This document shows positions 18,971-40,407 of a stretch of 40,976 nucleotides of DNA, piece by piece. The stretch covers positions 1 to 40,976 of the forward strand of contig CANRFC010000025.1 of assembly GCA_947629795.1 (NCBI GenBank), written 5' to 3'. The notes beneath the pieces were generated by a model. That model searched no databases. It saw only the letters and a program-made list of their open reading frames with translations, and was not told where the DNA came from. This DNA is from an uncultured Oscillospiraceae bacterium (GTDB taxonomy: Bacteria; Bacillota; Clostridia; Oscillospirales; Oscillospiraceae). Position numbers and translations under genes: made by a program. The first letter of the stretch is position 1. The number at the start of each line of letters is the position of its first letter.

Positions 18971-18989
18971 GGTAAACACCTCTTTGCGC

Positions 18990-19013
18990 AAAAAAGCCGC
19001 CCTTACGGGCGGC
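18990..19013 (-). terminator. Intrinsic terminator in the leader of the PrgI gene
   Basis: On the minus strand GCCGCCC, loop GTAA, GGGCGGC, then TTTTTT. The stem is perfect and the T-tract ends 19 nt before the PrgI start. A second, longer stem (GCTGACC/GGTCAGC, 19046-19078) followed by AATCTTTTT lies just upstream of it. Confidence 0.85.
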
Positions 19014-19161
19014 GGAAATTGACGATTTACATATCCAAAAAGATTGCTGACCACCCGGCTTGCGCCCAGGCGGTCAGCGGTTTAAGTTGACTTGCTCTTG
19101 GAGTTAACCGTTGAGAAACAGCGCTCTTTTTATGCCTATTATATCGTTTTCAAGTGTTTCG

Positions 19162-19524
19162 TCAACAGCTTTCACAGGGGGTGTCGGTTTCCGCTAAGTG
19201 GTCCTTCTGTCCCGCCTTTGGATTGGCCGTGCCGTCCGCTGCCAATGCCCTCTGGATACACTCCACGAAGAAGGCGTTTTGCTTGATGCCTTTGGCTCTG
19301 AGAAACTCCTTAAATCTTTCAAAGAGCTCCGCATCCACTTGGAACGCCACGGTACGCTGGTTGCCTTTCACTTTCATCATTCCTTCCTGTCTGTAGAATT
19401 CCGAGATGAGCCATGTCATGTACTCGCCAAGGTTTTTGCCTGACTCTCCCTGCCTTTGGCGCACCTGTTCGTGGAGAGCGGCAGGGATGGGGGCGCAGAG
19501 GTTTTTGAGCTTTTCCGTTTCCAT
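19162..19524 (-). CDS. Ribbon-helix-helix-like regulator
   Basis: A 120-aa protein with two similar strand-helix-helix segments: LCAPIPAALHEQVRQRQGES with LGEYMTWLISEFYR, and RTVAFQVDAELFERFKEFLR with QNAFFVECIQRAL. Each fits a ribbon-helix-helix half, so one chain could form the DNA-binding dimer by itself. ATG 19524 is preceded by GGAGG; the frame to 19611 adds an unlikely hydrophobic leader. It lies between the methylase and PrgI genes and ahead of two terminator hairpins, so it could regulate the transfer genes or bind oriT-like DNA. The target is not visible in the sequence. Confidence 0.65.
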   Translation of the reverse strand: METEKLKNLCAPIPAALHEQVRQRQGESGKNLGEYMTWLISEFYRQEGMMKVKGNQRTVAFQVDAELFERFKEFLRAKGIKQNAFFVECIQRALAADGTANPKAGQKDHLAETDTPCESC

Positions 19525-19629
19525 GGTTTTCGCCTCCTTCGCAAGCAAGTATATCCAAAACCGTACCACAAAGCCATTACCAATACCAACGATAAATGTC
19601 TGCCAAACCAAGCAAAATGGACAAAGACA

Positions 19630-21258
19630 TCAACTGCAAAGGATGGCCATAACAATGCCGGCCAGAACGAACTCCACACAGGGAATGGCCACGCTGTTGC
19701 CCAGGGCTTTGTACCGGGCCGAGTCGGACGCGTCGGGTATATCCGTCCAACCGTCCGGGAAACCTTGGAGCCTTTCGCACTCCAACGGGGTCAGGCGGCG
19801 GATCAGCATAGGGCCGTTCACCACCAGCTTGTCCTGATTGACATACTGAGAATTTGGCCCCTTGCGGTCGTCACAGGTGAGAGCTCCAACTGTCTCTTGG
19901 TATATGAGGTCGGTGACATCCTTGTGCTGTCTGGCACTTTCGGTGGACGCAACCTCGCTGTCACTAAATACATCCACCCGCTGCCGTGAGAACACGGCGT
20001 GGCGGTCGGTGGCGGTGAGGGTGAATGCCACACCCTCATCGATTCCAAGCCCGTTCCCGCCATTCTGCGGCTGGCGGTCTATGGCATTACCGGTAATGCA
20101 GATGACGGGGATCTTTTCCACTGCGGTTTCTTCAGCCACCAGAGGCAGATTATTGCCGCCTGTTCCCGCTCTTGCGGAGAGAGTGGGCGCGATTGGGTGG
20201 GGACCAGTGTATCTTGCATCAATGCCGTGGTTCTCAAACATGAGAGGCTGTGGCCGATTATTCCTCTGCTCTCCTACGATGAGAGGGGTGTTGCCGCCAC
20301 CCATGCCGAAGGCCGCTGTGACGGTCTGGGACGTTTCTACCGGCCCCTGGAAGCGGCTGTCCTGCCCGTGGGTGTCAAACACCAGCGGCTGATGCCCATG
20401 CTCCTGGGCCCGGAGCGTCCCTGACACGTCCTCGGATACATCCATCACCGTGCCACCCTGGTCGTTGAGGCAGAGGACAGAGGGCATACAGTTGCCACTG
20501 GGGGAACCTTTCAAAGTGGGAGCGACCTCCTCGCTGTACCCGATGCTGCCCGCTGTGGCTCCGGCTCCCGCGGAAAACGCGGCGGCAAACGACCGGCCAC
20601 CCGGAGTACGCCCGCCTCCGCCATCCGCTCCCGCCACATCGTGAAGGTCTCTTAGTTCATCCTGCTGATTGGTGGTGAAGGTCACCGACGCCCCGGTCAC
20701 GAAGGTTTGCATCTGCATATTTGCGGTAGCCATAAGAGCCCCGGCTATGCCATCCAAGTCTATTCCCTCGTCCCGCTGGTTGATGTGGTAGGCTTTCAGC
20801 GCCCCTTCAACAATATGGAAGTGAGCCAGCCCCGCTTGGGCCATCAGGGCCGATTTAAGCTGGGCGGGGAGTTCTTTTCCTCGCTCGTCCGCACGGCGCA
20901 GGATACCCAAACAGGCCGTCTGGCTGAGATAATACTTTTTGGCTGGATGGTCCTCCAGCACACTGGCGAGGGAGGAATAGACGGAATTGCGGGGCGCCAC
21001 GCCGGTGTTTAGAATGGTTCCATCCTCCAGAACGTGGGAACGCAGATCCCAATAGGCGCTCCCCAGCAGATCACCATGTCCTGGCGTGAGGTCGCAATAC
21101 TGATAGGGGAGGGCGATGAGTTCCAATTCGTTTACTCTGCGCTTGACCTTGACGGCATTTCTCTTGCCCCCGTCCTCCGCCATGGGCTCCAGGAAGGAAA
21201 ATTGGCCCTCGCTTTCATAGAGTTTCAGTTCCGTCCCTGTATCCAATTTCCTTGTCAC
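19630..21258 (-). CDS. C5 cytosine methyltransferase, beta part (target recognition, motifs IX-X)
   Basis: A 542-aa protein carrying the second half of a C5-cytosine methyltransferase. The last 60 residues hold motif IX (RRLTPLECERLQGFPDGW) and motif X (RYKALGNSVAIPCVEFV). The rest is a long, Gly- and Thr-rich target-recognition and spacer region (repeated VAPTL, SGTLRAQEHGHQPL, APTLSARAGTGGNNLPL) typical of phage/ICE methylases. The first part has KKYYLSQTACLGILRRADER, also typical of them. GTG 21258 has AAGGA and lies inside the end of the alpha gene, in another frame (44-nt overlap). With motifs I-VIII absent it must act with the alpha protein. Confidence 0.85.
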   Translation of the reverse strand: MTRKLDTGTELKLYESEGQFSFLEPMAEDGGKRNAVKVKRRVNELELIALPYQYCDLTPGHGDLLGSAYWDLRSHVLEDGTILNTGVAPRNSVYSSLASVLEDHPAKKYYLSQTACLGILRRADERGKELPAQLKSALMAQAGLAHFHIVEGALKAYHINQRDEGIDLDGIAGALMATANMQMQTFVTGASVTFTTNQQDELRDLHDVAGADGGGGRTPGGRSFAAAFSAGAGATAGSIGYSEEVAPTLKGSPSGNCMPSVLCLNDQGGTVMDVSEDVSGTLRAQEHGHQPLVFDTHGQDSRFQGPVETSQTVTAAFGMGGGNTPLIVGEQRNNRPQPLMFENHGIDARYTGPHPIAPTLSARAGTGGNNLPLVAEETAVEKIPVICITGNAIDRQPQNGGNGLGIDEGVAFTLTATDRHAVFSRQRVDVFSDSEVASTESARQHKDVTDLIYQETVGALTCDDRKGPNSQYVNQDKLVVNGPMLIRRLTPLECERLQGFPDGWTDIPDASDSARYKALGNSVAIPCVEFVLAGIVMAILCS

Positions 21259-22051
21259 CTTCTTCCTTATTCAGGCTGCCAAAGAGCAGTATAGGAGCGG
21301 AGTTTCCGGCAAAGTCGGCAACGAGAAAAATTCGTTTTCGCCGCTGGGCGACGCCCCAGTATTGCGCGTCCAGGCATCGCCATGCCAGGGACATCACACC
21401 CTGGATCTCTAAGCAGCCCGCTTGTGCCCAGCCGCCGGGGTATGGCCTGGGTACGGTGGCGCCTCCTGCCATGACCCGGACGATCTCCTCCAGAACGATG
21501 CGGAAATCCTCATACTTGGGTGCCCCGCTGCTGAACGCCCCCGGTACATTCTCCCAAATCATATACCGCGGGCGGATGTCCTTTCCGGTGCGGCCACGCT
21601 CCTTCTCTGCCTGCCGCATCTCCTTGATGACGCGAATTTGCTCCATAAAGAGGCCGGAGCGGGCGCCAGCCAAGCCAGCCCTCGTTCCGGCCACGGAGAG
21701 ATCCTGACACGGGCTGCCCCCGCAGATAATGTCTACAGGAAGCAGTTCCGAGCCTTTTAGCTTTGTAATGTCACCGCAGTGGTTCATGCTGGGGAACCGT
21801 CGCTTGGTGACCTCGATGGGGAACGGCTCGATCTCGCTGGCCCATAGGGTCTTGATGCCGCACCGATCCGCCGCCAAGGGGAAACCCCCGATGCCATCAA
21901 AGAGGCTCCCCATCGTCGTCACAAGCTCCGCATCACTCGCCCCGGCCCTGGGGCCAGGGCTCACTCGCTCCGCTGCTCCTCCTCTCCCCACGCAACCCGC
22001 TTCGCTGGGCTTGCGCATGGGCCCCGTAGCATTGAGTCCTTTTTCGGCCAT
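21215..22051 (-). CDS. C5 cytosine methyltransferase, alpha part (motifs I-VIII)
   Basis: A 278-aa catalytic half. Motif I is GSLFDGIGGFPLA, motif IV with the catalytic cysteine is GGSPCQDLSVAGTRAGL, motif VI is WENVPGAF and motif VIII is AQRRKRIFLV. It stops before the target-recognition domain, which the overlapping downstream gene supplies. The pair should transfer methyl groups from S-adenosylmethionine to cytosine, probably protecting the ICE from host restriction, as no nuclease is next to it. ATG 22051 is 12 nt after GGAGG; the first 46 residues are Gly/Arg/Ala-rich, and ATG 21913 directly before motif I is an alternative start. Confidence 0.88.
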   Translation of the reverse strand: MAEKGLNATGPMRKPSEAGCVGRGGAAERVSPGPRAGASDAELVTTMGSLFDGIGGFPLAADRCGIKTLWASEIEPFPIEVTKRRFPSMNHCGDITKLKGSELLPVDIICGGSPCQDLSVAGTRAGLAGARSGLFMEQIRVIKEMRQAEKERGRTGKDIRPRYMIWENVPGAFSSGAPKYEDFRIVLEEIVRVMAGGATVPRPYPGGWAQAGCLEIQGVMSLAWRCLDAQYWGVAQRRKRIFLVADFAGNSAPILLFGSLNKEEGDKEIGYRDGTETL

Positions 22052-22069
22052 CGCGGGAATCCACCTCCC

Positions 22070-22972
22070 TTATGCCGCCGCGGATGCCGCATGCGCGATC
22101 CTCTGTGTTGTGTTTACGACCGTCTGTACTGTGTAGACCGCGGACATGAGGTTGGCACGGGTGTTGGTGTCCAGCCCGAAGGCCCCGGCGATTCTGGGTA
22201 CCTCGCTGGCGGAGAGCAGCAGGCCAAGCCCCAGGAGCAGATGATCCTTGAATACCAGCATCCCAGCCACAAGGATCGTGGACTGGAGGAATGCCGTCAG
22301 GCACAGCCCGATGATCTGCTTCATCCACATGAGAAAGCCGTCAGTGTATCCCCGCGGTACGCTGAACATATAAAGGCTGCCCACGGCAATTTGGATGAGT
22401 AGGATGCCACCCCGTTTCAGGTTAGCGAAGAACACCTTGACGATGCAGTAGGCCGCCATGATAAGGCACAGGACAAGCATGATGGGACCCACGGTTACCG
22501 ACCCGACCGTCACCGTGGCGGCGCCCTCCATGATCCCCTCGGTGGTGGTGAAACCGTCCACGATGCTTTGCCCCAGCGCCCCAATGGTATTACTGTCTCC
22601 TACCAGCCCCGCGGTGAGAAGCCCCTGGAGGGATACACAGAGGGAGTAGAGCTTGACAGGGACGGTGGAGAACAGGCTCACCGCCAGAAAGCCCTTGATG
22701 ATGTTGAGGGCGGTTCGCTTGACGTCCCCTCTGCCGTTGGAGTATTCGATGCCGCACTCAAAGGCGCAGACCACCAGGCTGACAGCGAAGAGCGCCCAGC
22801 CCAGGTTGGAGAAAAAATGTACGATGGACTGGACCCACGAGAGCTCGAAAAGCTCCACGCCCATGTTTTCCATGAGTACGAAAAAGTCTCCCAGGAAACC
22901 GACCATCAAGTCGTAGAACCAATCGATGATGGCATTGAGGACAGTGGATGCCACAAAGTCCCAAATAAACAC
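22070..22972 (-). CDS. VirB6/TrbL-type conjugation channel protein
   Basis: A 300-aa polytopic membrane protein with about seven hydrophobic segments, including WALFAVSLVVCAFECGIEYS, VGPIMLVLCLIMAAYCIVKV and IIGLCLTAFLQSTILVAGML. This is the TrbL/VirB6 pattern of the inner-membrane channel component in Firmicutes ICEs. Translation starts at GTG 22972 with GGGGGTG upstream; no ATG fits before the first helix. The short C-terminus is Ala-rich. It lies between the VirB2-like and hypothetical genes and the methylase, in the usual Tn1549-like order. Confidence 0.88.
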   Translation of the reverse strand: MFIWDFVASTVLNAIIDWFYDLMVGFLGDFFVLMENMGVELFELSWVQSIVHFFSNLGWALFAVSLVVCAFECGIEYSNGRGDVKRTALNIIKGFLAVSLFSTVPVKLYSLCVSLQGLLTAGLVGDSNTIGALGQSIVDGFTTTEGIMEGAATVTVGSVTVGPIMLVLCLIMAAYCIVKVFFANLKRGGILLIQIAVGSLYMFSVPRGYTDGFLMWMKQIIGLCLTAFLQSTILVAGMLVFKDHLLLGLGLLLSASEVPRIAGAFGLDTNTRANLMSAVYTVQTVVNTTQRIAHAASAAA

Positions 22973-22988
22973 GGGCAGTCACCCCCTG

Positions 22989-23417
22989 TCACATGGACTG
23001 CCCGGTCATCGTGGGCGTTTCCTTTGCCCGCTGCCTCATGACGGGCGTCTGGAACAGTTCAACGTAGTCCTCTACAGAGTCCCCCAGGACAGCGATGTCC
23101 TTCTCGCTGGGCTGGACATACCAGTGAACCTTGCCGCCGTAATCCCAGATATAGGGGGCGGTGGAGGCTGAACAGTTCTGTCCTCTGGTGGTAAATATAT
23201 CCGCAAAACGGACGGCAATCTGATCTACCTTACCCTCGTCTGGCCTGAGAATGGTCATCAGGAGCCGGTCATAGTGATCCGCTATGCGGCCTGTGGCGAA
23301 GGTAAGCTTTGCCCTGTTCCCGCCACGGAGGGGGAGGAAACAGGCCCTGCCCACATAGACGGCGTCGGGGAAACGCTTTCCCACAATACGCCGGAGTTCC
23401 TGTTCGTAAAAGTTCAT
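22989..23417 (-). CDS. Hypothetical conjugation-region protein
   Basis: A 142-aa soluble protein of unknown function. ATG 23417 has GGAGGGG 7-8 nt upstream, and the frame to 23492 is not needed. The fold looks mixed alpha/beta (MNFYEQELRRIVGKRFPDAV, then LTFATGRIADHYDRLLMTIL, then VHWYVQPSEKDIAVLGDSVE). No catalytic or metal motif stands out. It lies between VirB6 and the VirB2-like protein, 13 nt from the latter, so it is probably an assembly factor of the channel. It ends PTMTGQSM. Confidence 0.6.
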   Translation of the reverse strand: MNFYEQELRRIVGKRFPDAVYVGRACFLPLRGGNRAKLTFATGRIADHYDRLLMTILRPDEGKVDQIAVRFADIFTTRGQNCSASTAPYIWDYGGKVHWYVQPSEKDIAVLGDSVEDYVELFQTPVMRQRAKETPTMTGQSM

Positions 23418-23430
23418 GGCGCACCCCTCC

Positions 23431-23775
23431 TTACATCCCGATAATCTGCCATACATACAGCGGGGCGGTGAGAGTGAAGATGAGGCAGGCAAAGAGGATC
23501 ACTGGGCCCGTCCATTCAAACTGCCCGTGCTTACGATAGTCAAAGTAGGCCATCCCCAGTTTGGCAAAAAAAGCAATGGCCAGAATCATATCCAAGGCAG
23601 GGAACACAACGCTGTCCACCACCGTCTTAATCTGACCGGAGGCGCTGGTCCAGGCATCCTCCACCGCTCCGGCCACATCGCCGCTTGCAGCGAGGGCGGG
23701 GACGCAGAGAACCCCCGTGCAGAGGGCAAGGGCAGCGGCCATCGCCAGAAACTTTTTCTTCCTGTTGTTTTTCAT
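23431..23775 (-). CDS. VirB2-like membrane protein, DUF3852 family
   Basis: A 114-aa secreted or membrane protein with a clear signal peptide (KKKFLAMAAALALCTGVLCVPALAAS, described here only by its ends KKKF and ALAAS, residues 6-31). A short amphipathic stretch (SGQIKTVVDSVVFPALDMIL) and two hydrophobic segments follow, separated by a small basic loop (FDYRKHGQFEW). Size, signal peptide and two membrane segments are those of VirB2/TrbC pilins, and DUF3852 takes that place in Tn1549-like elements. ATG 23775 has GGAGG upstream. Pilin function is inferred, not shown. Confidence 0.75.
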   Translation of the reverse strand: MKNNRKKKFLAMAAALALCTGVLCVPALAASGDVAGAVEDAWTSASGQIKTVVDSVVFPALDMILAIAFFAKLGMAYFDYRKHGQFEWTGPVILFACLIFTLTAPLYVWQIIGM

Positions 23776-23802
23776 GGTGAGATACCTCCAATTCTCTGGG
23801 CG

Positions 23803-24525
23803 TCAGCCCATCTTTTGTTCCATCGCTTGGGATAGATGCGTGACTCGGTGTTGCGTTCCCATGGTGGGGCCGGCAGGCTGGACGGTGCAGCCGTCGCGGT
23901 CCATGATCTCAGCAAACTGGCAAACGTGGTAGATCTCAGACCTCTCGAAAGGGGAGCCGATCTCCACATGGGTGTCATCGATGTACCGGCAGGATAGTTC
24001 CAGTTTGCTTCCGTCAGAATGAGTGATTCGGATATGCCCGCCGTCAGGGATGCGGAACAGCTCCCTATAGTCCGGGTCAATAAAGCGGATTCCGCGCTCC
24101 GCATGGGCCATGTGGCTGTCCAGCCAGCCTTTGTGGTAACTATATGCATAGAAGTTGTAATCCCCTTGTTCAGGACAGCACTTCATCAAATAGGCGTAAT
24201 CACTGCCATCTGTGCGGAAGCCAAACCAGCGGATATTTTCGGCGAGGCGGCAATCCCCGTTTTGCCGGCAGAGGGCGGCAATCCGATTACGGCTGGAGAA
24301 TTCCCCGGTGTCGAACCGCAGGCTGTCAATGACTCTCTGAAGATCTGCCTTAAACTCGGAGGTGTTCCAATCCTCACGGAAACCAAACCATGTGGTCCAG
24401 AATTCCTTCCCGCTCCGCCCAAAATCTCCCCTAAGATAGCCAACCAGCCCGGTCTGCTGGCTGATCTGCTGGGATTGACGATAGACGTAGAGCGGCTCGG
24501 AGCCCCTCAGTTTTCTAAGTTCCAT
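23803..24525 (-). CDS. Hypothetical protein with an LPD28-like C-terminus
   Basis: A 240-aa soluble protein. ATG 24525 has GGAAGG 6 nt upstream; the longer frame to 24597 runs through the Cys-rich gene. The first 150 residues include FWTTWFGFREDWNTSEFKAD and several Cys residues. The C-terminal part (GGHIRITHSDGSKLELSCRY, then YHVCQFAEIMDRDGCTV) resembles the small LPD28-like domain seen in ICE polyvalent proteins, with an HVCQFAE core. That resemblance is from memory and weak. It is 2 nt from the Cys-rich gene and 27 nt from the VirB2-like gene, so it is part of the transfer operon. Confidence 0.6.
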   Translation of the reverse strand: MELRKLRGSEPLYVYRQSQQISQQTGLVGYLRGDFGRSGKEFWTTWFGFREDWNTSEFKADLQRVIDSLRFDTGEFSSRNRIAALCRQNGDCRLAENIRWFGFRTDGSDYAYLMKCCPEQGDYNFYAYSYHKGWLDSHMAHAERGIRFIDPDYRELFRIPDGGHIRITHSDGSKLELSCRYIDDTHVEIGSPFERSEIYHVCQFAEIMDRDGCTVQPAGPTMGTQHRVTHLSQAMEQKMG

Positions 24526-24527
24526 TT

Positions 24528-24767
24528 TCAACCTTCCTTCGTCTGGGGGAGCAGGCCCATCTCCCGCATAATTTCTCCGGTGCACCAGCCAATACATGGC
24601 CGATCCCGCCCATAGGGGCAGTTATCGCATTCGCTGGTGTGCTCCTTTGGGGCTGTGTAATAACAGGAATCCCGCCTGCAGGCGCCCCGTTTCGTACCCC
24701 AATAGCAGAAAGCGCAGGACTTGGGCCTCAACTCCTGTAGATTATGATTTGTAAATGTACGAGCCAA
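24528..24767 (-). CDS. Small cysteine-rich protein, probably metal-binding
   Basis: A 79-aa protein with eight cysteines: CAFCYWG, then GACRRDSCYY, then CDNCPYG, and CIGWCTG. The paired spacing suggests one or two structural zinc or iron-sulfur sites. No ATG fits. The best start is TTG 24767, 10 nt after AAGGA; GTG at 24776 is too close to that site. It follows the adhesin gene, with a strong hairpin (24797-24820) between them, and overlaps no neighbour (2 nt from the next gene). Function unknown; similar small Cys-rich proteins occur at this place in related ICEs. Confidence 0.6.
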   Translation of the reverse strand: MARTFTNHNLQELRPKSCAFCYWGTKRGACRRDSCYYTAPKEHTSECDNCPYGRDRPCIGWCTGEIMREMGLLPQTKEG

Positions 24768-24796
24768 AGCGCTCACTTCCTTGAAAATAGGTTGAC

Positions 24797-24820
24797 GGGG
24801 CGTCCCGTTTGGGACGCCCC
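24797..24820 (-). terminator. Hairpin after the adhesin gene
   Basis: GGGGCGTCCC, loop AAAC, GGGACGCCCC: a perfect 10-bp stem 24 nt past the adhesin stop. The following minus-strand bases are GTCAACCTATTTT, so the T-tract is weak and delayed. It may be a leaky terminator that also lies 29 nt before the start of the Cys-rich gene. Confidence 0.6.
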
Positions 24821-24844
24821 GCCTGGCCGCTTCTTCTCGCTGTT

Positions 24845-29611: not shown

Positions 29612-29635
29612 TTCTGCTCTGATCTCCTTTCGAAC

Positions 29636-29670
29636 AAAAATAAGGCCGTATGCCTTTCGACATACGGCCT
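29636..29670 (-). terminator. Intrinsic terminator in the leader of the adhesin gene
   Basis: On the minus strand AGGCCGTATG, loop TCGAAAGG, CATACGGCCT, then TATTTTTG. Perfect 10-bp stem. It lies between the transglutaminase-like gene and the adhesin and ends about 24 nt before the adhesin start, so the adhesin leader contains it. Confidence 0.88.
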
Positions 29671-29693
29671 GTGGGGGCTGTGCTTTCGTCTAT

Positions 29694-30749: not shown

Positions 30750-30874
30750 ACTGTCGACCTCCTATATTTTTGATTGCTATGCTGCTGCAACGCAACCATA
30801 CCATAGAGAGGTGTTCAAGTCGAGAGAAATCAGAAGGAAAAGCTAACAATTTTTAAGTCCGGACACTGGGCAGA

Positions 30875-32610: not shown

Positions 32611-32629
32611 GGTCAGTTACCTCCTACGT

Positions 32630-33470: not shown

Positions 33471-33484
33471 TCCCTTGCGCCTCC

Positions 33485-33556
33485 TATTACAATATATTTG
33501 GGTTGGGAGCACGGCAGCCAGCCGTGCCTTTTTCCATATCGTTGCCAAAGCTGTTA
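33485..33556 (-). repeat. Leader repeat, copy A (upstream of the AbrB-like gene)
   Basis: On the minus strand this stretch begins TAACAGCTTTGGC, contains ATGGAAAAAGGCACGGCTGG leading into a GCACGGC/GCCGTGC hairpin (33508-33527), and ends ATTGTAAT directly before AGGAGG of the AbrB-like gene. Copy B at 40905-40976 shares the start, the hairpin and the ATTGTA end. Copy A also codes a possible 16-residue leader peptide (MEKGTAGCRAPNPNIL) that stops 23 nt before the gene. The IS110 element abuts its outer end. Confidence 0.75.
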
Positions 33557-33559
33557 GAA

Positions 33560-33879
33560 TGGGAGGGTCTGGGCCTGACGTGCGCCTCCAAGGACCAGTT
33601 GCGTCCGTGAGAAAGTCCGTCAGCCAGCCTCTCATTCGCAGCGTTCGATTTATGCAGATTGAGCCACCTCGTCGGGACAAGCACCATATCATTCGCTTTC
33701 GCGCAAGCGCAAAAGCTCATTTATTCCGCTGCCCATCCTCTCCCCCACAAAGCGTTGCCGCCTTGCGGGGACCCCGGTTGGTTTTCCCGGCAAGCGCGTC
33801 CGTGTCATCAAATAGATTGAATCGGCAATGATGGAAGGGCTGGCCGCCAAAGACAAATCCAAGACAGGGAGCGTTGCGT
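33560..33879 (+). ncRNA. Candidate bridge RNA region of the IS110 element
   Basis: The 320 nt before the transposase hold no credible gene. In IS110-group elements the left end encodes a bridge (seek) RNA that guides recombination. Structured parts visible here are a hairpin GCTTTCGCGC, AA, GCGCAAAAGC (33690-33715 or so) and a GC-rich inverted repeat around 33747-33790 (TTGCCG with CGGCAA). Guide loops cannot be assigned by eye. The call rests on position and family knowledge. Confidence 0.4.
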
Positions 33880-35091
33880 ATGAACAATGTGGCAGGGATC
33901 GATATCTCCAAGGGGAAGAGTACGGTGTCCGTCCTCCGCCCATTTGGAGAAGTGGTGGCAAAACCGTTTGCCGTTGGTCACACCGGCAGTGAACTCAGGC
34001 AGCTGGCAGACTACCTGAAAAGCCTGGACGGTGAGACCCGTGTGGTCATGGAACACACCGGGCGGTACTATGAACCGGTGGCCCAGTTCCTTCACAACGA
34101 AGGCATCTTTGTCAGCGCTGTGAATCCGAAACTCATCAAAGACTATGGCGGCAACACGCTGCGCAAGGTCAAGACCGATGCGGCGGATTCCCGGAAGATC
34201 GCCCGATACGGTCTTGACAACTGGGCCGAGTTGCGGCAATATGCTTCCATGGACACGATTCGTTACCAACTGAAAACGCTGAACCGGCAGCAGGGGCTGT
34301 ATTCCAAAACCAAAACGATGATGAAGAATAACCTCATCGCCCTTCTGGATCAGACTTATCCCGGCGCCAACGCCCTGTTCGACAGCCCTGTCCGTGAGGA
34401 CGGGACGCAGAAGTGGGTGGACTTCGCCGCATCCTTCTGGCATGTGGACTGCGTGCGGGGCATGAGCCAGAGTGCTTTCACGGAGCGCTACCGCAAATGG
34501 TGTAAACGGCACGGCTATAACTTTAGCAGCGACAAAGCCGATGAGATCTACACCGAAGCGCGGGATTTGATTGCCATGCTGCCCAAGGATGCCATGACCA
34601 AGCTGCTGGTGCAGCAGGCCATTGACGCTCTCAATGCTGTTTCCACGGCCCAGGCCCGGCTCAAGGCCGAGATGCTGAAGCTGGCTTCCCAGCTTCCTGA
34701 GTTCCCCGTGGTAATGGCCATGCGCGGCGTAGGTGAATCCCTTGGCCCTCAACTCATGGCGGAGATTGGGGATGTGACCCGCTTCCCTCACAGGGGTTCC
34801 ATTACAGCCTTTGCCGGCGTTGATCCCGGCGCCAACCAATCCGGCTCTCATGAGTCCCAAAGTGTGAACACTTCCAAGAGCGGTCCGCCGGAACTGCGCA
34901 AAGCCCTGTTCCTCGTTATGGACTGCCTTCTGAAAACCATGCCCCAGGATGACCCGGTATACCGATTCATGGATAAGAAGCGTTCCGAAGGAAAGCCCTA
35001 CCTGGTTTACATGACGGCTGGCGCCAATAAGTTCCTGCGCGTCTACTATGGCAAAGTAAAGGAGTATCTCTCCCAGTTGGAGAATTTGTGA
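33880..35091 (+). CDS. IS110-family transposase
   Basis: A 403-aa DEDD recombinase. The N-terminal RuvC-like domain has Asp in VAGIDISKG, Glu in VVMEHTGRYY and the acidic pair in VKTDAADSRKIARYG. The C-terminal Tnp20 domain has AMRGVGESLGPQLMAEIGD, ITAFAGVDPGANQSGS with the catalytic Ser, and LRKALFLVMDCLL. The size is normal for the family, and no frameshift or stop interrupts it. ATG 33880 follows GGGAG; an in-frame start at 33874 has no better site. A 443-aa reading frame on the other strand (33808-35139) is antisense to this gene and is not real. It is intact and probably active. Confidence 0.93.
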   Translation: MNNVAGIDISKGKSTVSVLRPFGEVVAKPFAVGHTGSELRQLADYLKSLDGETRVVMEHTGRYYEPVAQFLHNEGIFVSAVNPKLIKDYGGNTLRKVKTDAADSRKIARYGLDNWAELRQYASMDTIRYQLKTLNRQQGLYSKTKTMMKNNLIALLDQTYPGANALFDSPVREDGTQKWVDFAASFWHVDCVRGMSQSAFTERYRKWCKRHGYNFSSDKADEIYTEARDLIAMLPKDAMTKLLVQQAIDALNAVSTAQARLKAEMLKLASQLPEFPVVMAMRGVGESLGPQLMAEIGDVTRFPHRGSITAFAGVDPGANQSGSHESQSVNTSKSGPPELRKALFLVMDCLLKTMPQDDPVYRFMDKKRSEGKPYLVYMTAGANKFLRVYYGKVKEYLSQLENL

Positions 35092-35165
35092 AGCATCCTT
35101 CCTTGAGTCGGAAGCACATTGCCCATACTCTAAAAGCATCTTATGACAGAAAGAGAGAAAGTAAG

Positions 35166-35585
35166 ATGTTTTTAGACAATTTATCCACCTCTGTACTCCA
35201 ACTTTGCGACGCCCGCAAACTCAGCTACGAAGCAGCTTCCGAACGATGCGGCCTCAGTTCCCGGTATTTCGGTGATATTGCCAGAGGCAAGACCGCCCCC
35301 ACGGTCCCCACGCTGGAAAAACTCTGCGTTGGCTTTGAGCTGACGCCAAACGATCTGCTTATTCCCTCACCTGTTTGGAGGGAGATAACCTTTCGCACCC
35401 CCATGCCTGTGACGCATATCCGCTGTTTCCGTTATTCTTATCCCGATGGTCTCACCAGCTTTCCTGTTTGCCCTCGGTGCGGGAGCACCATGGAACGGGA
35501 ATACCAAGCCTACTGTGACCGCTGTGGACAGTGTCTAAGCTGGAAGGGCTTCTCCAAAGCGGCCATTATCCTCCCGAAAAAATAG
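35166..35585 (+). CDS. XRE-family regulator with a C-terminal zinc ribbon
   Basis: A 139-aa protein. Residues 8-65 are a Cro/C1-type helix-turn-helix (LCDARKLSYEAASERCGLSS, then YFGDIARGKTAPTVPTLEKL). Residues 100-130 form a zinc ribbon (CPRCG, 15 residues, CDRCG). ATG 35166 has GAGAG 10 nt upstream; the longer frame from 35088 begins in the transposase stop. Possible promoters in the gap are TTGAGT/TACTCT (35103-35131) and TTGCCC/TATGAC (35119-35147), each with 17-nt spacing. It is one of few plus-strand genes in the ICE and could be either a passenger of the IS or a native regulator. Confidence 0.75.
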   Translation: MFLDNLSTSVLQLCDARKLSYEAASERCGLSSRYFGDIARGKTAPTVPTLEKLCVGFELTPNDLLIPSPVWREITFRTPMPVTHIRCFRYSYPDGLTSFPVCPRCGSTMEREYQAYCDRCGQCLSWKGFSKAAIILPKK

Positions 35586-35664
35586 ATTTGATTACATATC
35601 CTCACGGCCAGTTGCTTTTGTCTGCTGGCTGCTCTTGGCTTGCCCTTCTCTCTGCAAATTTTCT

Positions 35665-36558
35665 TCATTTACCTATTGACTTTTTATTTGCAGACTTTGT
35701 CAAATCGTCAAAAATGGTGAGCTGCACCATGGCCCGTTTGCGCTCGGCGGTATCATAGTTCGAGATAATCAGTTCCTCAAACTGACAATTGGGGTCGAAC
35801 CTCTGCCGAATGTTATTGAGTCGGGTAACTGGCTCGATGTAGATGCCTTCATGATCGTAGAGGTCACGCACAAAGGCGTCATCGTTGTATGAGAGCAGGA
35901 ACTTGCCGTGGATGGAGAGGAGGCTGTCCCGGAGCCGGATGTGATCCCTCTCTGTGAAACCGCCTTCTCCAATGTTCTGGTAGTAACCTTCCGTTGCATG
36001 GTAGGGTGGGTCGCAGTAGAAGATGGTGGTGTCCCTGTCATAGTGCTGGATGAGCCTCTCAAAGTCTTGGTTCTCCAATAGCACCCTTCCCAGTCTTCTG
36101 CTGGCCTGGTCGATGAGGGGGAAGTCAGCCCATATATCATGGGGCATTGCCCCGTAGCTGTTCAGGCCGGAGGCATAAGAATAGCGGATGATCTGATAGA
36201 ACCAGGCAGCCCTTTGGACATCTGTCGTCCGTTTCTTTCCCAGCGAACGCCGCGCCATGTCAAAGTCAGACCTGGAGTTGAGGACATAGCGGAGAGACCG
36301 TTTCAGCAGATCAGGCTTGTCCCGCACCACCCGGAAAAGATTGACCAGCAGTTCGTTCCGATCATTGTAGACCTCAAAGTCGCCGATAGGAGAGGCGCGG
36401 GCGATGGCGGGGTAGCCGTAGGCTGGGGGCTTGTGGAATAGCACCCAGCCACCTCCGCCGAACACTTCCACATACTTTTCAAAGTTCAGCGGAAAGCGGG
36501 AGAGGATTTCGTCCCGAAGTGCTTTCTTGCCACCTACCCAGCTCATAAAGCTGTTCAC
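35665..36558 (-). CDS. D12-class N6-adenine DNA methyltransferase (Dam-like)
   Basis: A 297-aa DNA adenine methylase. The S-adenosylmethionine site is MSWVGGKKALRDEILSRFP with EVFGGGGWVL, the catalytic motif IV is FYCDPPYH, and GKFLLSYNDD and a C-terminal FEELIISNYD complete the family pattern. It methylates adenine in a short target not visible here. No restriction enzyme is next to it, so it likely protects the ICE or marks DNA. Start is GTG 36558, which overlaps the winged-helix stop as GTGA; ATG at 36546 just before the motif would also work. Confidence 0.92.
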   Translation of the reverse strand: MNSFMSWVGGKKALRDEILSRFPLNFEKYVEVFGGGGWVLFHKPPAYGYPAIARASPIGDFEVYNDRNELLVNLFRVVRDKPDLLKRSLRYVLNSRSDFDMARRSLGKKRTTDVQRAAWFYQIIRYSYASGLNSYGAMPHDIWADFPLIDQASRRLGRVLLENQDFERLIQHYDRDTTIFYCDPPYHATEGYYQNIGEGGFTERDHIRLRDSLLSIHGKFLLSYNDDAFVRDLYDHEGIYIEPVTRLNNIRQRFDPNCQFEELIISNYDTAERKRAMVQLTIFDDLTKSANKKSIGK

Positions 36559-36860
36559 TCTCTGCCACGCTCCCCGAAACTATCCAGGCTCCCCTCTAGC
36601 CCGCAGACGGCAGCCTCCAGTCCCGCCATCATCTTTTCCAGATGCCGGAGAGTGGAGAACACTTCCCCGGCGGTCTGGGCGTAGTAGTAGCCAGTCTGGT
36701 CGCTGGCGATGGGGACACCCGCCCGCCGCAGGCGGTTCACCTGCTTACGGAGCTCGTTCTCCGAAATGTGGATAATACGCCGCAGACGCTCCCCGCTCAC
36801 TGCGTTGGCCTTACCCAGGCAGTGGGACTTAAGGTAGTTATTCAATTCTTCTTTCTTCAT
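36555..36860 (-). CDS. Winged-helix DNA-binding protein
   Basis: A 101-aa protein. The first 65 residues form a winged helix: KEELNNYLKSHCLGKANAVS, then GERLRRIIHISENELRKQVN, then a wing (GVPIASDQTGYYYAQ). The C-terminal 35 residues are a likely coiled coil (STLRHLEKMMAGLEAAVCGL). ATG 36860 has AAGGA 9 nt upstream. It lies between the PAPS-reductase-like and adenine-methylase genes and is coupled to the latter through a 4-nt overlap, so it may control it. The leader contains a terminator and a hairpin that covers its ribosome binding site. Confidence 0.75.
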   Translation of the reverse strand: MKKEELNNYLKSHCLGKANAVSGERLRRIIHISENELRKQVNRLRRAGVPIASDQTGYYYAQTAGEVFSTLRHLEKMMAGLEAAVCGLEGSLDSFGERGRE

Positions 36861-36897
36861 CTTCTGTCCTTTCCGGAACCATTTCCCGAAAAGGGCA

Positions 36898-36944
36898 TAA
36901 AAAAAGAAGGGGCCGCAGTCCCCATTCGGGAATACGGCCCCTTC
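36898..36944 (-). terminator. Intrinsic terminator in the leader of the winged-helix gene
   Basis: On the minus strand GAAGGGGCCG, 19 nt, CGGCCCCTTC, then TTTTTTT. Perfect 10-bp stem with further pairing inside (CCC with GGG). It ends 37 nt before the winged-helix start and overlaps nothing but the gap after the PAPS-reductase-like stop. The leader family it belongs to is described under findings. Confidence 0.88.
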
Positions 36945-36947
36945 AAA

Positions 36948-37700
36948 TCAAGTGTAGTTGTTTGGGTCGAACAGGGAACACTGCCTGTCCTCCCATTGAA
37001 AGCCCATGTCGATTTCGTCGATCCTCTGGGTGCGGTTGAACCGTTCTGTGGCCTTGTTGGGCGCCTGTTGGAGCGCCAACAGTTTTGCCCACAGGTCAGG
37101 ATGGTGGTCGTAGAGGTGCCGGAGCTCCTTCCGTGTCGCGTTAGGACAGAAAAAGCAGCCGTTGCGGGAGGTGAATTTGTAAATTGGCGAGTAGAGGCCC
37201 GCCCGTTTACAGAGCGCGGCGGCGTCCGCCTCGCTCACGCGGTATTTTGCCAGCAGGGAAACTTTCTTGCCTCCATCCAACCGCATGAGCCGCTCCTGCT
37301 CATCACAGGCATACCCGATGTATTGTACGGTATCGGGCCCCAGCGTATTTTGGTAGGCTGTGATGGGTGGGAGCTTGCAGTCCCGTTGGATGCAGCACCG
37401 CCCGCACAGCGGCCAGCTGTTTAGCTTTCCCGCCGCCGCGCCCCGCTGGACCACACGGTAGAAGGAGTCCAGATAGGTCATGGAGGAGCGGAGGACGGTC
37501 ACCTTCACGCCGTGCGCGTCCAGGAATGGGATCCCTTTCTCGCGGATGAAGTCCCGGTGTTCCGGGATCTCTCCCGAAGTGGCCGCGTCAAACATGACCT
37601 CGCAATAGACTGCCTCCTCCAGGGGATCTCCATGCTCCAACGCCAACAAGACCGTGGCCAGACTGTCCTTCCCAAACGAGCAGGACGCAATGTGATAGAT
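36948..37700 (-). CDS. PAPS-reductase-like PP-loop protein (start codon unclear)
   Basis: About 250 aa. The PP-loop is ASCSFGKDSLATVLLALEHG, and three Cys pairs (LCGRCCIQRDC, GCFFCPNATRKEL) fit an iron-sulfur or zinc site. The family contains PAPS reductases, DndC-type DNA-sulfur proteins and many phage and ICE members of unknown substrate. The frame has no ATG, GTG or TTG near its conserved start; AGGAGG (37711-37716) is 10 nt before an ATC codon at 37700. ATG 37811 exists in frame but would translate through the terminator hairpin. Either a rare non-AUG start is used or the gene is damaged. Adjacent to winged-helix and adenine-methylase genes. Confidence 0.72.
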   Translation of the reverse strand: MYHIASCSFGKDSLATVLLALEHGDPLEEAVYCEVMFDAATSGEIPEHRDFIREKGIPFLDAHGVKVTVLRSSMTYLDSFYRVVQRGAAAGKLNSWPLCGRCCIQRDCKLPPITAYQNTLGPDTVQYIGYACDEQERLMRLDGGKKVSLLAKYRVSEADAAALCKRAGLYSPIYKFTSRNGCFFCPNATRKELRHLYDHHPDLWAKLLALQQAPNKATERFNRTQRIDEIDMGFQWEDRQCSLFDPNNYT

Positions 37701-37706
37701 GGGGAA

Positions 37707-37724
37707 CTCACCTCCTGTGGTGAG
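37707..37724 (-). promoter_or_regulatory. Hairpin covering the ribosome binding site of the PAPS-reductase-like gene
   Basis: CTCACC and GGTGAG are perfect complements around a 6-nt loop. On the minus strand the second arm is part of AGGAGGTGAG, so the Shine-Dalgarno sequence is partly paired in this stem, which is likely to lower translation. Confidence 0.55.
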
Positions 37725-37744
37725 CCGTCTCCTGTGGGGGCAAG

Positions 37745-37780
37745 AAAAAAGGGCCGCTGTCCCTTTCAGGAAAACGGCCC
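37745..37780 (-). terminator. Intrinsic terminator in the leader of the PAPS-reductase-like gene
   Basis: On the minus strand GGGCCG, 18 nt (with CCT/AGG pairing inside), CGGCCC, then TTTTTT. It ends 44 nt before the probable start (37700) and lies between the DUF4314 gene and the PP-loop gene. Confidence 0.85.
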
Positions 37781-37853
37781 CTGCAAATGTGTATTGCCTT
37801 GCTGAACCCACCTCTCACTGCGGCGGGTGTGCTGCCTCCTCCTTTACTTTCCG

Positions 37854-38846
37854 CTACATCGTCATTCCCTCCATTCCTCCTATCTCCGGCTTGGCGTGCT
37901 TTTCATAGGCCATGGGATCGGCACCGGGGGTATTCCAGCCGAACATGGATCCATGAACCATAGCTGCCTCCTGTTGGGGCGTGACGCCCAGTTCCTGGTT
38001 TTTGTAGTCGGCGATGCGGCGGTTTCTGGCTGGGTTGCCGGTGTCCCACTCAGACAGGGTATAGCCGGATTTCCCCCTTTCGATATAAATGAGTTTACTC
38101 TCTGTTTCCGTCACAGACCAGCACAGATCGGGGAGACGTTTCGAAAACTCCGGATCGAAGCGATCTTGCTCCACCATAATGCTCCAGTTATCGTCGTTCC
38201 AGAGGTGGATATACAGTTCTCCCTCTCCGGTCCTGATTTCCCTCTGCTCAAAGCCCTCGCCCCAACCATCGCTGGCCTGTCCGGATATGAAGTCGATGAG
38301 GTTGACTTTCTCGTTGGCGGTGAGTTCGCCCACCACTTTGCACTCGGCCACCCCCCACAGCCTGCGATCCCGTTCCTCCACAGTGAACTCCATGCGTTTC
38401 ACTTTCTCGCAGACAGCATCCTCTTTATCGTACCAATGCATGATGCCGCTTTCCGTTTCCTCTGGCGCGGCATTGTTTTGAAGAGCCTTGAGGATGATGC
38501 CCTCGTACTCCCGGAGGGAGAACCCATCCAGCGGAGTTGGCTCATTGGTGAGGTCTCCCCACTCATCCCTCTCATAAAGGTCAGCGGTAAGGGGGAAGAA
38601 GAACTTGACCGTCTGCGCCTCCGGGGGCAGAACGGTAAAGCTGTCCTCTCCGGGGATGACCCCCAGCATCCGTCCATCGTCCCACTTCACATGGAAGGTT
38701 CCGATGTCATCGATGCTCTCCAACGTCCCCATCGTTCCGGGCATCACAGGTTGAGGGTCATTGCCCATTTCCCGGAGCCTGATGCGGCTGCCTACGGGGT
38801 ACTGCTCCTGAAGGAACTTCACCCAGCCTCTACTCAGCTCTTTCAT
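37854..38846 (-). CDS. DUF4314 domain protein
   Basis: A 330-aa protein. Residues 15-70 (YPVGSRIRLREMGNDPQPVM, then TMGTLESIDDIGTFHVKWDD) are the DUF4314 domain, a small SH3-like barrel found in ICE and phage proteins. The remaining 260 residues are soluble, acidic and of unknown family. ATG 38846 has GGAGGT 8 nt upstream and overlaps the ArdA stop by 4 nt (ATGA), so the two are co-translated. The protein ends EIGGMEGMTM, a tail also seen on the ArdA and 161-aa proteins. It lies in the establishment block next to ArdA, suggesting a role in entry or anti-defence. Confidence 0.85.
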   Translation of the reverse strand: MKELSRGWVKFLQEQYPVGSRIRLREMGNDPQPVMPGTMGTLESIDDIGTFHVKWDDGRMLGVIPGEDSFTVLPPEAQTVKFFFPLTADLYERDEWGDLTNEPTPLDGFSLREYEGIILKALQNNAAPEETESGIMHWYDKEDAVCEKVKRMEFTVEERDRRLWGVAECKVVGELTANEKVNLIDFISGQASDGWGEGFEQREIRTGEGELYIHLWNDDNWSIMVEQDRFDPEFSKRLPDLCWSVTETESKLIYIERGKSGYTLSEWDTGNPARNRRIADYKNQELGVTPQQEAAMVHGSMFGWNTPGADPMAYEKHAKPEIGGMEGMTM

Positions 38847-40087
38847 AGCGTCATACCTCCAATTTTCATATCCTGACTCATCGGGGCAGGGCGGTAACCC
38901 AGCCCAAGGCATGGGTTCAACTGTTCTTGTGCCTGGCCTTGCTCCGGGGTGTTCAGGGTGAAGAACTCCGCGAAACCCGATTCCTCCGCGCACTGGAGAT
39001 AGCCCAACCGGGTTATCTGGCCGATCTGGTGGAGCATGAGGAACTCCCCAAGGGCTTCGTAGTTATAGTAGAGCTCTAGCGCTGGGTCATACTCATACCG
39101 CCCAGATTTCTGGATCATGTACCTGCCCAATCCCTCGGCGTCTTTTACGCCGGGACATAAGGTAAAGTCATGGATGTTGTTGATGAGCAGTTCCGCCTGT
39201 TCGGGGCTGTCCGGGGCCATGACTTCAAAGGCAGCGAAACAACGCTGCCGCTCTGCATCCGACAGATCATCCAGTCTTTCGCAGATTTCGTTCCAATCCC
39301 ACAGATCGGCAAGGCTGCCGATGAGGTCGAGCTCATCACCCTTCCTGAGTCCCCAACTTAGGCTGTCTGGCTCCAGCCCTTCCAAACTGATGCCGCTCCG
39401 CTCACAGAAACGGGAGAAGGCCAGCCGGGTGGTGGGGAGAAACACGGTCACTGACTCGCCCTCCCGCTGGGTCAGTTCCACCTCCGCAACCGGCCTGTCC
39501 CACAGAAACCCTGGGAAAGCATGGCCATTGTAGGGTTCCTCCATCCGCATTCCGTTGCGGAAGAGGACACCATAGGGGGTCAACTTTCCCTCGCCAGACT
39601 GGAGAAGCCGCTCGGACAGGGTCCTGCCATTCTGAGCGTTTATCTCGTCCACTGGCGCGGAGCCGCCGTGAATGGTGAGATAATGCTGTTTTCCGGCTTC
39701 CTCCAGTTTGGAAAAGTCGCTGATGACTGTGACATTCTGAGAACAGAAGGTCATGTTGATGAGCGACCGGATGTCCTCGCACCCGAAAGCATGGCAAGCC
39801 GCCTGGAATTGCTGTGCTTCATATACATCGAAACTGTCCAGACGTTTGGCCAGGTAATCCAACTCATCCAAATTGACCCGTTGGCCTTTCAGACAGCCAA
39901 GGATGTTGTAGTCTGAGTCGATGTCTTCCACCATGCAGTCCTGGGCTATCGCGTCCCCGGCATTAAGATCCTTGAGGAGTCCGACGGCAATATCGTACTG
40001 TTGCCGGGAGAGGGGGAACATGATTTCGGCGCTGCCTTTCTCCGGCTGCTGGGCGTTTCGGAGGAAAGCTTTGATTAGATAGGACAT
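38843..40087 (-). CDS. ardA: ArdA-type antirestriction protein
   Basis: A 414-aa protein matching clostridial ICE ArdA: MSYLIKAFLRNAQQPEKG, then YDIAVGLLKDLNAGDAIAQD, then NLDELDYLAKRLDSFDVYEA, and INMTFCSQNVTVISDFSKLE. ArdA is a DNA mimic that blocks type I restriction enzymes during establishment of transferred DNA; acidic residues are abundant throughout. Standard ArdA proteins are about 170 aa, so this form has an extended C-terminal part (RTLSERLLQSGEGKLTPYGV onward), as in other Firmicutes ICEs. ATG 40087 has GGAGGT 8 nt upstream. The last codons (IGGMTL) contain the ribosome binding site of the DUF4314 gene. Confidence 0.88.
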   Translation of the reverse strand: MSYLIKAFLRNAQQPEKGSAEIMFPLSRQQYDIAVGLLKDLNAGDAIAQDCMVEDIDSDYNILGCLKGQRVNLDELDYLAKRLDSFDVYEAQQFQAACHAFGCEDIRSLINMTFCSQNVTVISDFSKLEEAGKQHYLTIHGGSAPVDEINAQNGRTLSERLLQSGEGKLTPYGVLFRNGMRMEEPYNGHAFPGFLWDRPVAEVELTQREGESVTVFLPTTRLAFSRFCERSGISLEGLEPDSLSWGLRKGDELDLIGSLADLWDWNEICERLDDLSDAERQRCFAAFEVMAPDSPEQAELLINNIHDFTLCPGVKDAEGLGRYMIQKSGRYEYDPALELYYNYEALGEFLMLHQIGQITRLGYLQCAEESGFAEFFTLNTPEQGQAQEQLNPCLGLGYRPAPMSQDMKIGGMTL

Positions 40088-40165
40088 GATATCCACCTCC
40101 ATTCTTCTTGATTTTGTGGCAGCCACAACACATACCACAACCTTTGGGACAAGTCTACGGAAGTT

Positions 40166-40315
40166 TTACTTGCCTCTCTGTTTTTCCCTGGAACCCTTGC
40201 GGCAGGGGAAGATCTTCTTCCTTTGGGGCTCATTGACCTTCGAACATTTTCGAGGTTCCATCATCATGCGCTCGAACTTCTCATACCGGGTGCCACCCAT
40301 AAAATACTTTGCCAT
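40166..40315 (-). CDS. Small basic protein of unknown function
   Basis: A 49-aa protein, MAKYFMGGTRYEKFERMMME at its start, then Lys/Arg-rich (KKIFPCRKGSREKQRGK). ATG 40315 has AAGGAGG 5 nt upstream. The longer frame to 40381 enters the terminator hairpin. No family is recognised. It is too small and basic for an enzyme and may bind nucleic acid or a partner. It follows the terminator at 40353-40386 and precedes ardA by 78 nt. Confidence 0.6.
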   Translation of the reverse strand: MAKYFMGGTRYEKFERMMMEPRKCSKVNEPQRKKIFPCRKGSREKQRGK

Positions 40316-40352
40316 GGTGCCTCCTTTCCGGCCGCGCTCCCAAAAGGGCAGC

Positions 40353-40386
40353 AAAAAAGGCCGCTGCTCCTTGCAGAACACGGCCT
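40353..40386 (-). terminator. Intrinsic terminator in the leader of the 49-aa gene
   Basis: On the minus strand AGGCCG, 17 nt (with partial pairing inside), CGGCCT, then TTTTT. It ends 37 nt before the 49-aa start. The sequence after it, GCCCTTTTGGGA then CCGGAAAGGA, matches the leader of the winged-helix gene at 36861-36900. Confidence 0.8.
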
Positions 40387-40407
40387 GATGTGTGAATTGT
40401 CTCGCGG

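Follow-up and report, generated by a model that had tools for sequence, protein, structure and literature searches.

Attenuators with an upstream antiterminator, such as those of pT181, trp and riboswitches, carry a terminator in the leader and form alternative pairings. In the repZ/repA switches of IncI-alpha and IncL/M plasmids, attributed to Asano and Mizobuchi 1998 and Athanasopoulos 1999, a stem-loop reportedly pairs near a hidden ribosome site and opens it; these pseudoknot switches are also said to have a leader peptide and an antisense RNA. Antitermination of the conAn type employs a ConAn1 protein together with a conAn2 RNA located where the operon begins. The timP mRNA of the type I toxin-antitoxin system timPR of Enterobacteria forms mutually exclusive folds in which the ribosome site can be sequestered, and pairing of its upstream SL1 with SL3, supported by covariation, is needed for translation (PMC11228461). 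Terminators inside conjugation operons are passed by antitermination in pLS20, through conAn (PMC8955417), and in Tn916, through canT, a cis-acting RNA (452-bp fragment) downstream of the conjugation promoter (PMC11658703). Here, we describe a family of putative leader RNAs in a Gram-positive conjugative element of an uncultured Oscillospiraceae bacterium, in which an intrinsic terminator is combined with a predicted ribosome lock. The element occupies the minus strand of the window, i.e. the whole stretch of DNA analysed, which is the entire contig C25 (40,976 base pairs, bp) of a 2.86-Mb genome.

A preliminary description of this DNA had placed minus-strand intrinsic terminators before the genes for PrgI, an adhesin, a winged-helix protein, a PP-loop protein and a protein of 49 amino acids (aa), and had proposed that they are passed by conditional read-through. 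All five are where it put them. Each folds as a single hairpin, and the sequence confirms that the T-tracts end 19, 24, 37, 44 and 37 nucleotides (nt) before the starts, in the same order. A strict scan of the coding (minus) strand returns six terminators, i.e. these five and one inside the VirB4 gene, against 0.50 (standard deviation 0.63, maximum 2) in 40 dinucleotide shuffles. These intrinsic terminators, each a GC-rich hairpin followed by a U-tract, are real and lie beyond chance. A broader scan of both strands for terminator-like sites gives 32 against 18.3 (standard deviation 3.8) at 20-40 kb and 27 against 20.7 (standard deviation 4.9) at 1-20 kb.

The host rarely places terminators so close before starts. 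Across 400 kb of its chromosome, the next called start is no more than 50 nt from the stem end for 4 of 24 strong co-directional terminators; an identical procedure gives 3 of 6 in the window, or 5 of 6 once the 49-aa ATG and the PP-loop start are placed by hand. Missed genes on the chromosome, where starts were not corrected by hand, would bias this comparison. We also looked for separate promoters between the terminators and the genes, and the coding strand holds no sigma-70-like site with at least 11 of 12 matches between 20 and 41 kb. The gap between terminator and gene is too short to hold a promoter, so the genes are expected to be transcribed from beyond the terminators, which makes conditional read-through a fair reading. 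The contig stops at position 40,976, and the start of the transcription unit lies outside view, maybe beyond the contig end.

The idea of conditional read-through gains from this lack of room and from the conservation of the leader, but the five sites differ in kind. The terminators before the winged-helix, PP-loop and 49-aa genes are alike in sequence and belong to one leader-RNA family. Its members are about 85 nt long and consist, in order, of segment 1, segment 2, the T-tract, segment 3, segment 4 and the start codon. Segments 1 and 2 form the terminator hairpin (H1), GGGGCCG ... CGGCCCC with an apical part such as UUCC-GAAA-GGGA. Segment 3 is often GCGCCCUUUUUCGGGAAA, segment 4, which bears the Shine-Dalgarno (SD) sequence, is often UCCCGGAAAGGAG, and segments 1, 3 and 4 are similar to each other. 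The 60 nt upstream of H1 are unconserved (25 loci, ungapped alignment, mean top-base frequency 0.36-0.45), so the module begins at H1. Within these 60 nt, the 25 loci have no conserved partner for the terminator arm, such as an upstream antiterminator would supply, and the lack of any conservation there makes an aptamer or upstream antiterminator unlikely.

A covariance model, R1, built from 11 winged-helix leaders matches the winged-helix leader of the window at 36858-36944 with 90.3 bits, but this leader is itself a seed sequence. R1 also finds the PP-loop leader (37726-37784, 36.4 bits) and the 49-aa leader (40313-40390, 31.9 bits), neither of which is in the seed. Among 300 genomes of the taxonomic family, seed genomes included, 30 match at 39 bits or more and 62 at E<=1e-3, the latter count taking in matches below about 36 bits, which are mixed. 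The mixture is visible in 20 listed of 35 weak matches: four lead into the winged-helix gene, four into a 49-aa-like gene and 12 into neither, most of these 12 resembling plain terminators. Two weak matches stand before other genes, at L238 1521-1602 (-) and at L245 1789-1874 (+), the second immediately ahead of a DUF4314-like match, and may be outliers of the leader family. A winged-helix ortholog follows the leader in 27 of the 30 loci returned; L224 lies at a contig end, and L221 and L228 have no winged-helix reading. Across 291 genomes of the class, R1 has two matches at E<=1e-5, the genome of the window and G013.

The winged-helix ortholog itself was matched in 27 of 394 genomes of the order. 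Upstream of 19 ortholog loci (the 18 best of 30 returned, plus L195), 10 have the leader, eight lack it and one is unalignable; the nine closest orthologs among the loci returned all have it. A terminator-bearing leader is retained before the winged-helix gene across a syntenic family of elements. Further copies occur in the virome records L196-L199, and leaders of the 49-aa kind number six (the window, two in G417, and one each in G621, G085 and G450). A viral contig scan returned one locus, without an R1 match. A loose pattern search of the host outside the window gave 12 places against nine in a backward control and showed no further copies. The window has no match in Rfam release 15 at the gathering score, and at E<=1 the only Rfam match in nine loci is a group II intron (RF00029), which lies close to a relative element, at L071 2756-2853 (+).

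Segment 3 is roughly the reverse complement of segment 1, and the complementarity extends over the terminator loop and over positions in the loop of the 3:4 hairpin. The set in which this third pairing (1:3) was analysed consists of the 30 R1 loci, minus four copies (L205, L210, L223 and L224), plus 14 leaders from elsewhere, i.e. 40. Dropping nine that are at least 90% alike leaves 31: 25 of the winged-helix class, including L221 and L228 despite their lack of a recognisable winged-helix reading, five of the 49-aa class and one PP-loop leader. L254 was included in the stricter de-duplication test only. The covariation analysis of leaders in related elements that had been suggested in the preliminary description finds coevolution of segments 1 and 3: own 1:3 duplexes have a mean of -21.07 kcal/mol against -16.77 (standard deviation 0.49) for permuted partners, reached in 0 of 5000 permutations, counts that are not strict probabilities as the leaders stem from related elements. 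The 3:4 pairing (mean -15.94 against -14.50, 1/5000) and 1:2 (2/5000) pass as well, and 1:4 gives 95/5000. Among leaders less than 80% alike (n=14), 1:3 has z -6.1 (0/10000) and 3:4 7/10000, whereas a sham with segment 3 reversed has z -0.8 (2147/10000); below 75% (n=8), 1:3 gives 1/10000 and the sham 4343/10000. The 49-aa class by itself (n=6) gives 8/720.

The 1:3 pairing averages 15 pairs, or 464 in 31 leaders (424 Watson-Crick and 40 G-U); a further 31 positions are mismatched and 37 bulged. In 25-27 of 31 leaders, the best 1:3 duplex includes positions 11-14 of segment 1, which belong to the terminator loop and are mostly unpaired there, and an energy of -15 kcal/mol is reached by 31/31 leaders against 15/86 chromosomal terminators in a like comparison. 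Double changes preserve the pairing in G493 (GUUUCUCUGAAAA/UUUUCAGAGAAAC), G515 (GUGUU/AACAC), G564 (GAUUU/AAAUC) and both G214 and G561 (GUUACCCG/CGGGUAAC). A competing long-range pairing with covariation, a feature of switches of the repZ/timP kind, is therefore present. In the PP-loop leader of the window, segment 3 differs in sequence from that of other leaders and is still complementary to its own segment 1.

Another such feature, an SD sequence sequestered in one fold, is predicted in 27 of the 31 non-redundant leaders, where the 3:4 hairpin occludes at least 6 of 8 SD positions; in the window it is clear for the winged-helix leader only. Single-sequence folds of the first nine winged-helix leaders collected give 1:2 together with 3:4, and part of the T-run enters the SD-covering hairpin in L254, L255 and L267. 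When 1:3 is forced, the SD is predicted to be free (at most two positions paired) in 26/31 leaders. Conditional read-through, as first proposed, thus has partial support, to which control of translation would be added: most members are also predicted to hide the SD, so that passing the terminator is not expected to be enough.

We propose that the leader is a double gate, i.e. a terminator plus an SD lock, and that the SD is set free when the RNA adopts the alternative 1:3 fold, a reading to which we give an even chance. The computed parts are a terminator, an SD-covering hairpin in most leaders, 1:3 complementarity with coevolution and a conserved place before genes. Segments 1 and 2 would fold as an intrinsic terminator; in most members, transcripts that run past it would fold 3:4 and hide the SD, leaving leaky RNA untranslated; and segment 3 could instead pair with segment 1 over about 15 bp, terminator loop included, leaving the SD free. 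This would require that the RNA adopts these folds in vivo, that translation occurs from the 1:3 state and that some factor produced upon activation of the element shifts the RNA toward this state. Candidates are a modified polymerase, a protein of the element and an RNA acting in trans. The 1:3 form could be a pseudoknot in which the outer terminator stem persists, or a full strand exchange. Since segment 3 is made after the T-tract, 1:3 in cis cannot prevent termination and would decide only the translation or stability of RNA already past it.

Several points weigh against the double gate. SD cover is unclear in four of 31 leaders, namely L226, L228 and, in the window, the 49-aa (0/8 positions) and PP-loop (3/8) leaders, and we set our confidence lower because two of the three leaders in the window lack a clear lock. 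The nested 1:3 fold averages -30.5 kcal/mol against -40.3 for the default fold, which is thus more stable by about 10 kcal/mol, so 1:3 needs a trigger. The T-tract of the G214 leader is poor. The 1:3 pairing was first spotted by eye in about a dozen of the tested leaders (most of the others were fetched later), and segment borders follow a hand-made rule. Below 70% alike (n=5), 1:3 weakens to 256/10000, with the sham at 3109/10000; 3:4 is not significant at n=8 (931/10000) or n=5 (1328/10000); and at n=32 the sham is also low (z -2.5, 88/10000), a sign of relatedness. Finally, we rejected G-U enrichment as proof of RNA pairing, since the G-U share among non-Watson-Crick positions is 0.34, equal to that of permuted pairs (0.34), and gives no support for RNA over DNA.

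A more specific version of the double gate, which we regard as quite improbable, is that the leader retains a record of the way in which the polymerase got past the terminator, so that read-through and translation are coupled by an RNA memory. An antiterminated polymerase or a bound factor would block H1, segment 1 would capture segment 3, and the gene would be translated; after a leak past a formed H1, segment 3 would close over the SD and the RNA would stay silent. Spurious transcripts of regulatory and anti-restriction genes would thereby be filtered twice. In a variant, H1 RNAs terminated at one leader would act in trans on segment 3 of another, a thought that comes from the finding that segments of different leaders cross-pair well. 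The features discussed are collected in Table 1.

Table 1. Leader segments, hairpins and associated genes in the window; fold and duplex values are in kcal/mol.
Feature	Position	Strand	Details
Winged-helix H1 terminator hairpin (segments 1 and 2)	36906..36944	-	fold -31.7; segment 1 about 36920-36937
Winged-helix terminator T-tract	36899..36905	-	sequence
Winged-helix segment 3, pairs with segment 4 (SD region) or segment 1	36879..36896	-	1:3 duplex -22.6; whole-leader fold
Winged-helix segment 4, SD-bearing arm	36866..36878	-	7/8 SD positions paired in predicted 3:4 hairpin
PP-loop H1 terminator	37750..37781	-	fold -21.6; T-tract 37745-37750
PP-loop segment 3	37725..37734	-	duplex with own segment 1 -18.1
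49-aa H1 terminator	40358..40386	-	fold -17.4; T-tract 40353-40358
49-aa segment 3	40331..40348	-	paired with segment 1 even in the predicted minimum free energy fold
Winged-helix (HTH_11-like) gene, 101 aa	36555..36860	-	Pfam PF08279 E 3.4e-4, under gathering score; PHROG 2113
PP-loop (PAPS-reductase-like) gene	36948..37700	-	PHROG 424 E 3.9e-28; PAPS-reductase-like family matches
Gene for 49-aa basic protein MAKYFMGGT...	40169..40315	-	relatives in G621, G417 (two), G450; N-terminal relative in G085
Promoter-like site TTGACG-16-TATAAT, upstream of both PrgI terminators	19138..19165	-	11/12 matches
First PrgI leader terminator	19046..19078	-	fold -27.3
Second PrgI leader terminator	18996..19013	-	fold -15.8; T-tract 18990-18995
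Intergenic terminator before adhesin gene	29643..29670	-	fold -21.4
Hairpin between adhesin and Cys-rich genes	24794..24823	-	13-bp stem; fold -30.7; poor U-tail
Terminator-like hairpin inside VirB4 gene	16542..16576	-	strict scan

An alternative to the double gate, in line with the preliminary description, is that these are plain terminators in a long conjugation transcript, passed by processive antitermination of the pLS20 conAn or Tn916 canT kind, with 3:4 and 1:3 incidental. The six strict coding-strand terminators against 0.5 expected and the lack of a strong promoter between 20 and 41 kb would fit it, and Tn916 (PMC11658703) and pLS20 (PMC8955417) work in this way. It leaves the 1-3 coevolution and the hidden SD in 27/31 leaders unexplained, and no antitermination factor was found, the genome having no second NusG-domain protein: PF02357 has one match in the assembly, on contig C2, and none on the window contig, although other contigs may hold the remainder of the element. 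We consider this explanation unlikely.

We also find it improbable that the repeats are DNA operators around CCGTTTTCCGAAAGG (direct in segments 1 and 4, inverted in 2 and 3), bound for example by the winged-helix product, with the RNA pairings a by-product and the motif copies changing together whenever the specificity of the protein changes. The likeness of segments 1, 3 and 4, a downstream gene that encodes a likely DNA-binding protein and the absence of G-U enrichment over permuted pairs all suit such operators. The spacing between segments 1 and 3, in contrast, is 31-43 nt, plus two of 53 nt, with no helical phase, and the 1:3 pairing survives insertions (L227 and L199). Moreover, the motif of the winged-helix leader has no significant excess in the window (five matches, 2.95 expected), and the site lies past the terminator and covers the SD, away from any recognised promoter.

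The hairpins could also be ordinary terminators at gene ends, or protect mRNA, with weak or atypical nearby promoters missed by the sigma-70 scan; this would account for the adhesin and Cys-rich sites and perhaps for all. In its favour, the adhesin, winged-helix and 49-aa hairpins begin 3-24 nt past the upstream stop, the adhesin hairpin lacks segment 3 and 4/24 chromosomal terminators likewise lie within 50 nt of the next start. Against it, the three leaders have only 37-44 nt from T-tract to start, and the whole leader is conserved before the gene in 10 of 18 aligned winged-helix loci while the upstream flank is not. As a general explanation we regard it as very unlikely.

The remaining sites differ from the leader family. 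The adhesin hairpin was not accepted as a member, since R1 matches it with only 22.5 bits and neither a segment 3 nor an SD lock was seen there. It comes after the stop of the upstream gene and is kept in G282 with paired changes, as expected of a terminator; it looks ordinary. The hairpin before the Cys-rich gene, described at first as a weaker one, is present and has the stem, fold and U-tail given in Table 1. The hairpin in VirB4 was rejected as a conserved signal: it coincides with codons for a conserved protein motif, SSxILASQN(L/I)EDF, is called in 11 of 31 VirB4 sequences listed and is probably a by-product of those codons.

At PrgI, the preliminary description had correctly reported a leader terminator and overlooked a second one upstream of it. 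Two terminators after a promoter-like site look like an attenuator layout. Sites with 11/12 matches number 25 in 400 kb of chromosome, both strands, so the PrgI site alone is not significant, and it is absent in 10 relatives scanned (best 9/12). We read the region upstream of PrgI by eye in 17 of 30 VirB4 loci, and a hairpin stands just before the gene in 9/17, counting two that are near-identical and one without a U-rich tail. We rejected it as the same leader family, as the sequence is not kept and the closest relative, G282, is without the hairpin. In that relative (L041), other sequence replaces the terminators and, by eye, looks like the start of a small antitoxin gene on the opposite strand.

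The element encodes a TraG/VirD4-type coupling protein, a MobL relaxase, NlpC-like and VirB4-like proteins, TrbL, a SpaA/thioester adhesin, a sortase, SpoVG, a D12 methylase, the HTH_11-like protein, DUF4314 and ArdA. The labels PrgI and Cys-rich are taken over from the preliminary description; the PrgI protein has no match in Pfam or NCBIfam. The gene order (49-aa gene, ArdA, DUF4314, cargo, winged-helix, D12 methylase, SpoVG, sortase, adhesin, TrbL, PrgI, VirB4) is partly repeated in 13 compared relative loci (12 elements). The 49-aa gene thus precedes ArdA, and its relatives in G621, G417 (two), G450 and G085 sit behind the same kind of leader. The winged-helix gene precedes, and overlaps, the D12 methyltransferase gene (35665-36558), which follows it in 10/13 loci, i.e. 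in all 10 that hold a winged-helix gene. The PP-loop gene has no ATG, GTG or TTG start behind its leader and carries ATC at the position of the ATG in relatives; either a rare start codon is used or the gene may be impaired.

Other features were seen along the way. A second hairpin family, approximately GACTGTAA..TTACGGTC followed by a T-run and GTCC or near, occurs twice in L071 (7748-7783 and 13722-13759) and in L070 3050-3086, L072 5070-5106, L073 5209-5245 and L121 25-68, 31-38 nt before the start in the four cases with a called start. These hairpins were not counted as members, as their segment 3 amounts to a few bases; they are possibly a sister leader family. A near-identical pair of antisense-strand hairpins, GCACGGCAGCCAGCCGTG plus a T-run, lies at 33506-33529 and 40928-40948 (+) of the window, and by eye their coding strand has a common protein motif around EKxTAGCRA. 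A C5 DNA methylase is split between two overlapping frames (N and C parts) at 19630-22051 (-), and that of the relatives L129, L132 and L143 is likewise matched as two adjacent or overlapping pieces. A zeta-toxin-like gene lies on the opposite strand within the element, at 7576-8415 (+).

If the double gate is true, the leader would be an RNA control element of gut conjugation in Oscillospiraceae-type genomes that fits a transcription stop and a ribosome lock into less than 100 nt with no upstream sensor. Conjugative elements could then keep regulatory and anti-restriction genes silent while integrated, despite leaking host transcription. The leader would also offer a small target for testing the coupling of read-through and translation. 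A literature search by title and abstract, thin on subscription papers, returned no report of such a leader. Known already are terminators in conjugation operons that are passed by antitermination, and alternative folds that free an SD; new would be one module, without an Rfam match, that joins a terminator to an SD-freeing pairing in which a terminator arm is the partner.

Compared with attenuators, the alternative partner, segment 3, comes here after the terminator, and nothing is conserved upstream of H1. With the repZ/repA switches the leaders would share a long-range pairing that opens a hidden ribosome site. With timP they would share mutually exclusive folds and an SD-freeing long-range pairing with covariation; in the part of that report available (PMC11228461), the timP pairing has 7 bp and no terminator hairpin as partner, whereas the pairing here has about 15 bp, its partner is an intrinsic terminator with a T-tract, and the genes belong to a conjugative element. 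As in conAn and canT, terminators within conjugation operons need to be passed; these two are processive antiterminators near the main promoter, whereas the novelty here would lie in the leader itself, with its SD lock and alternative pairing.

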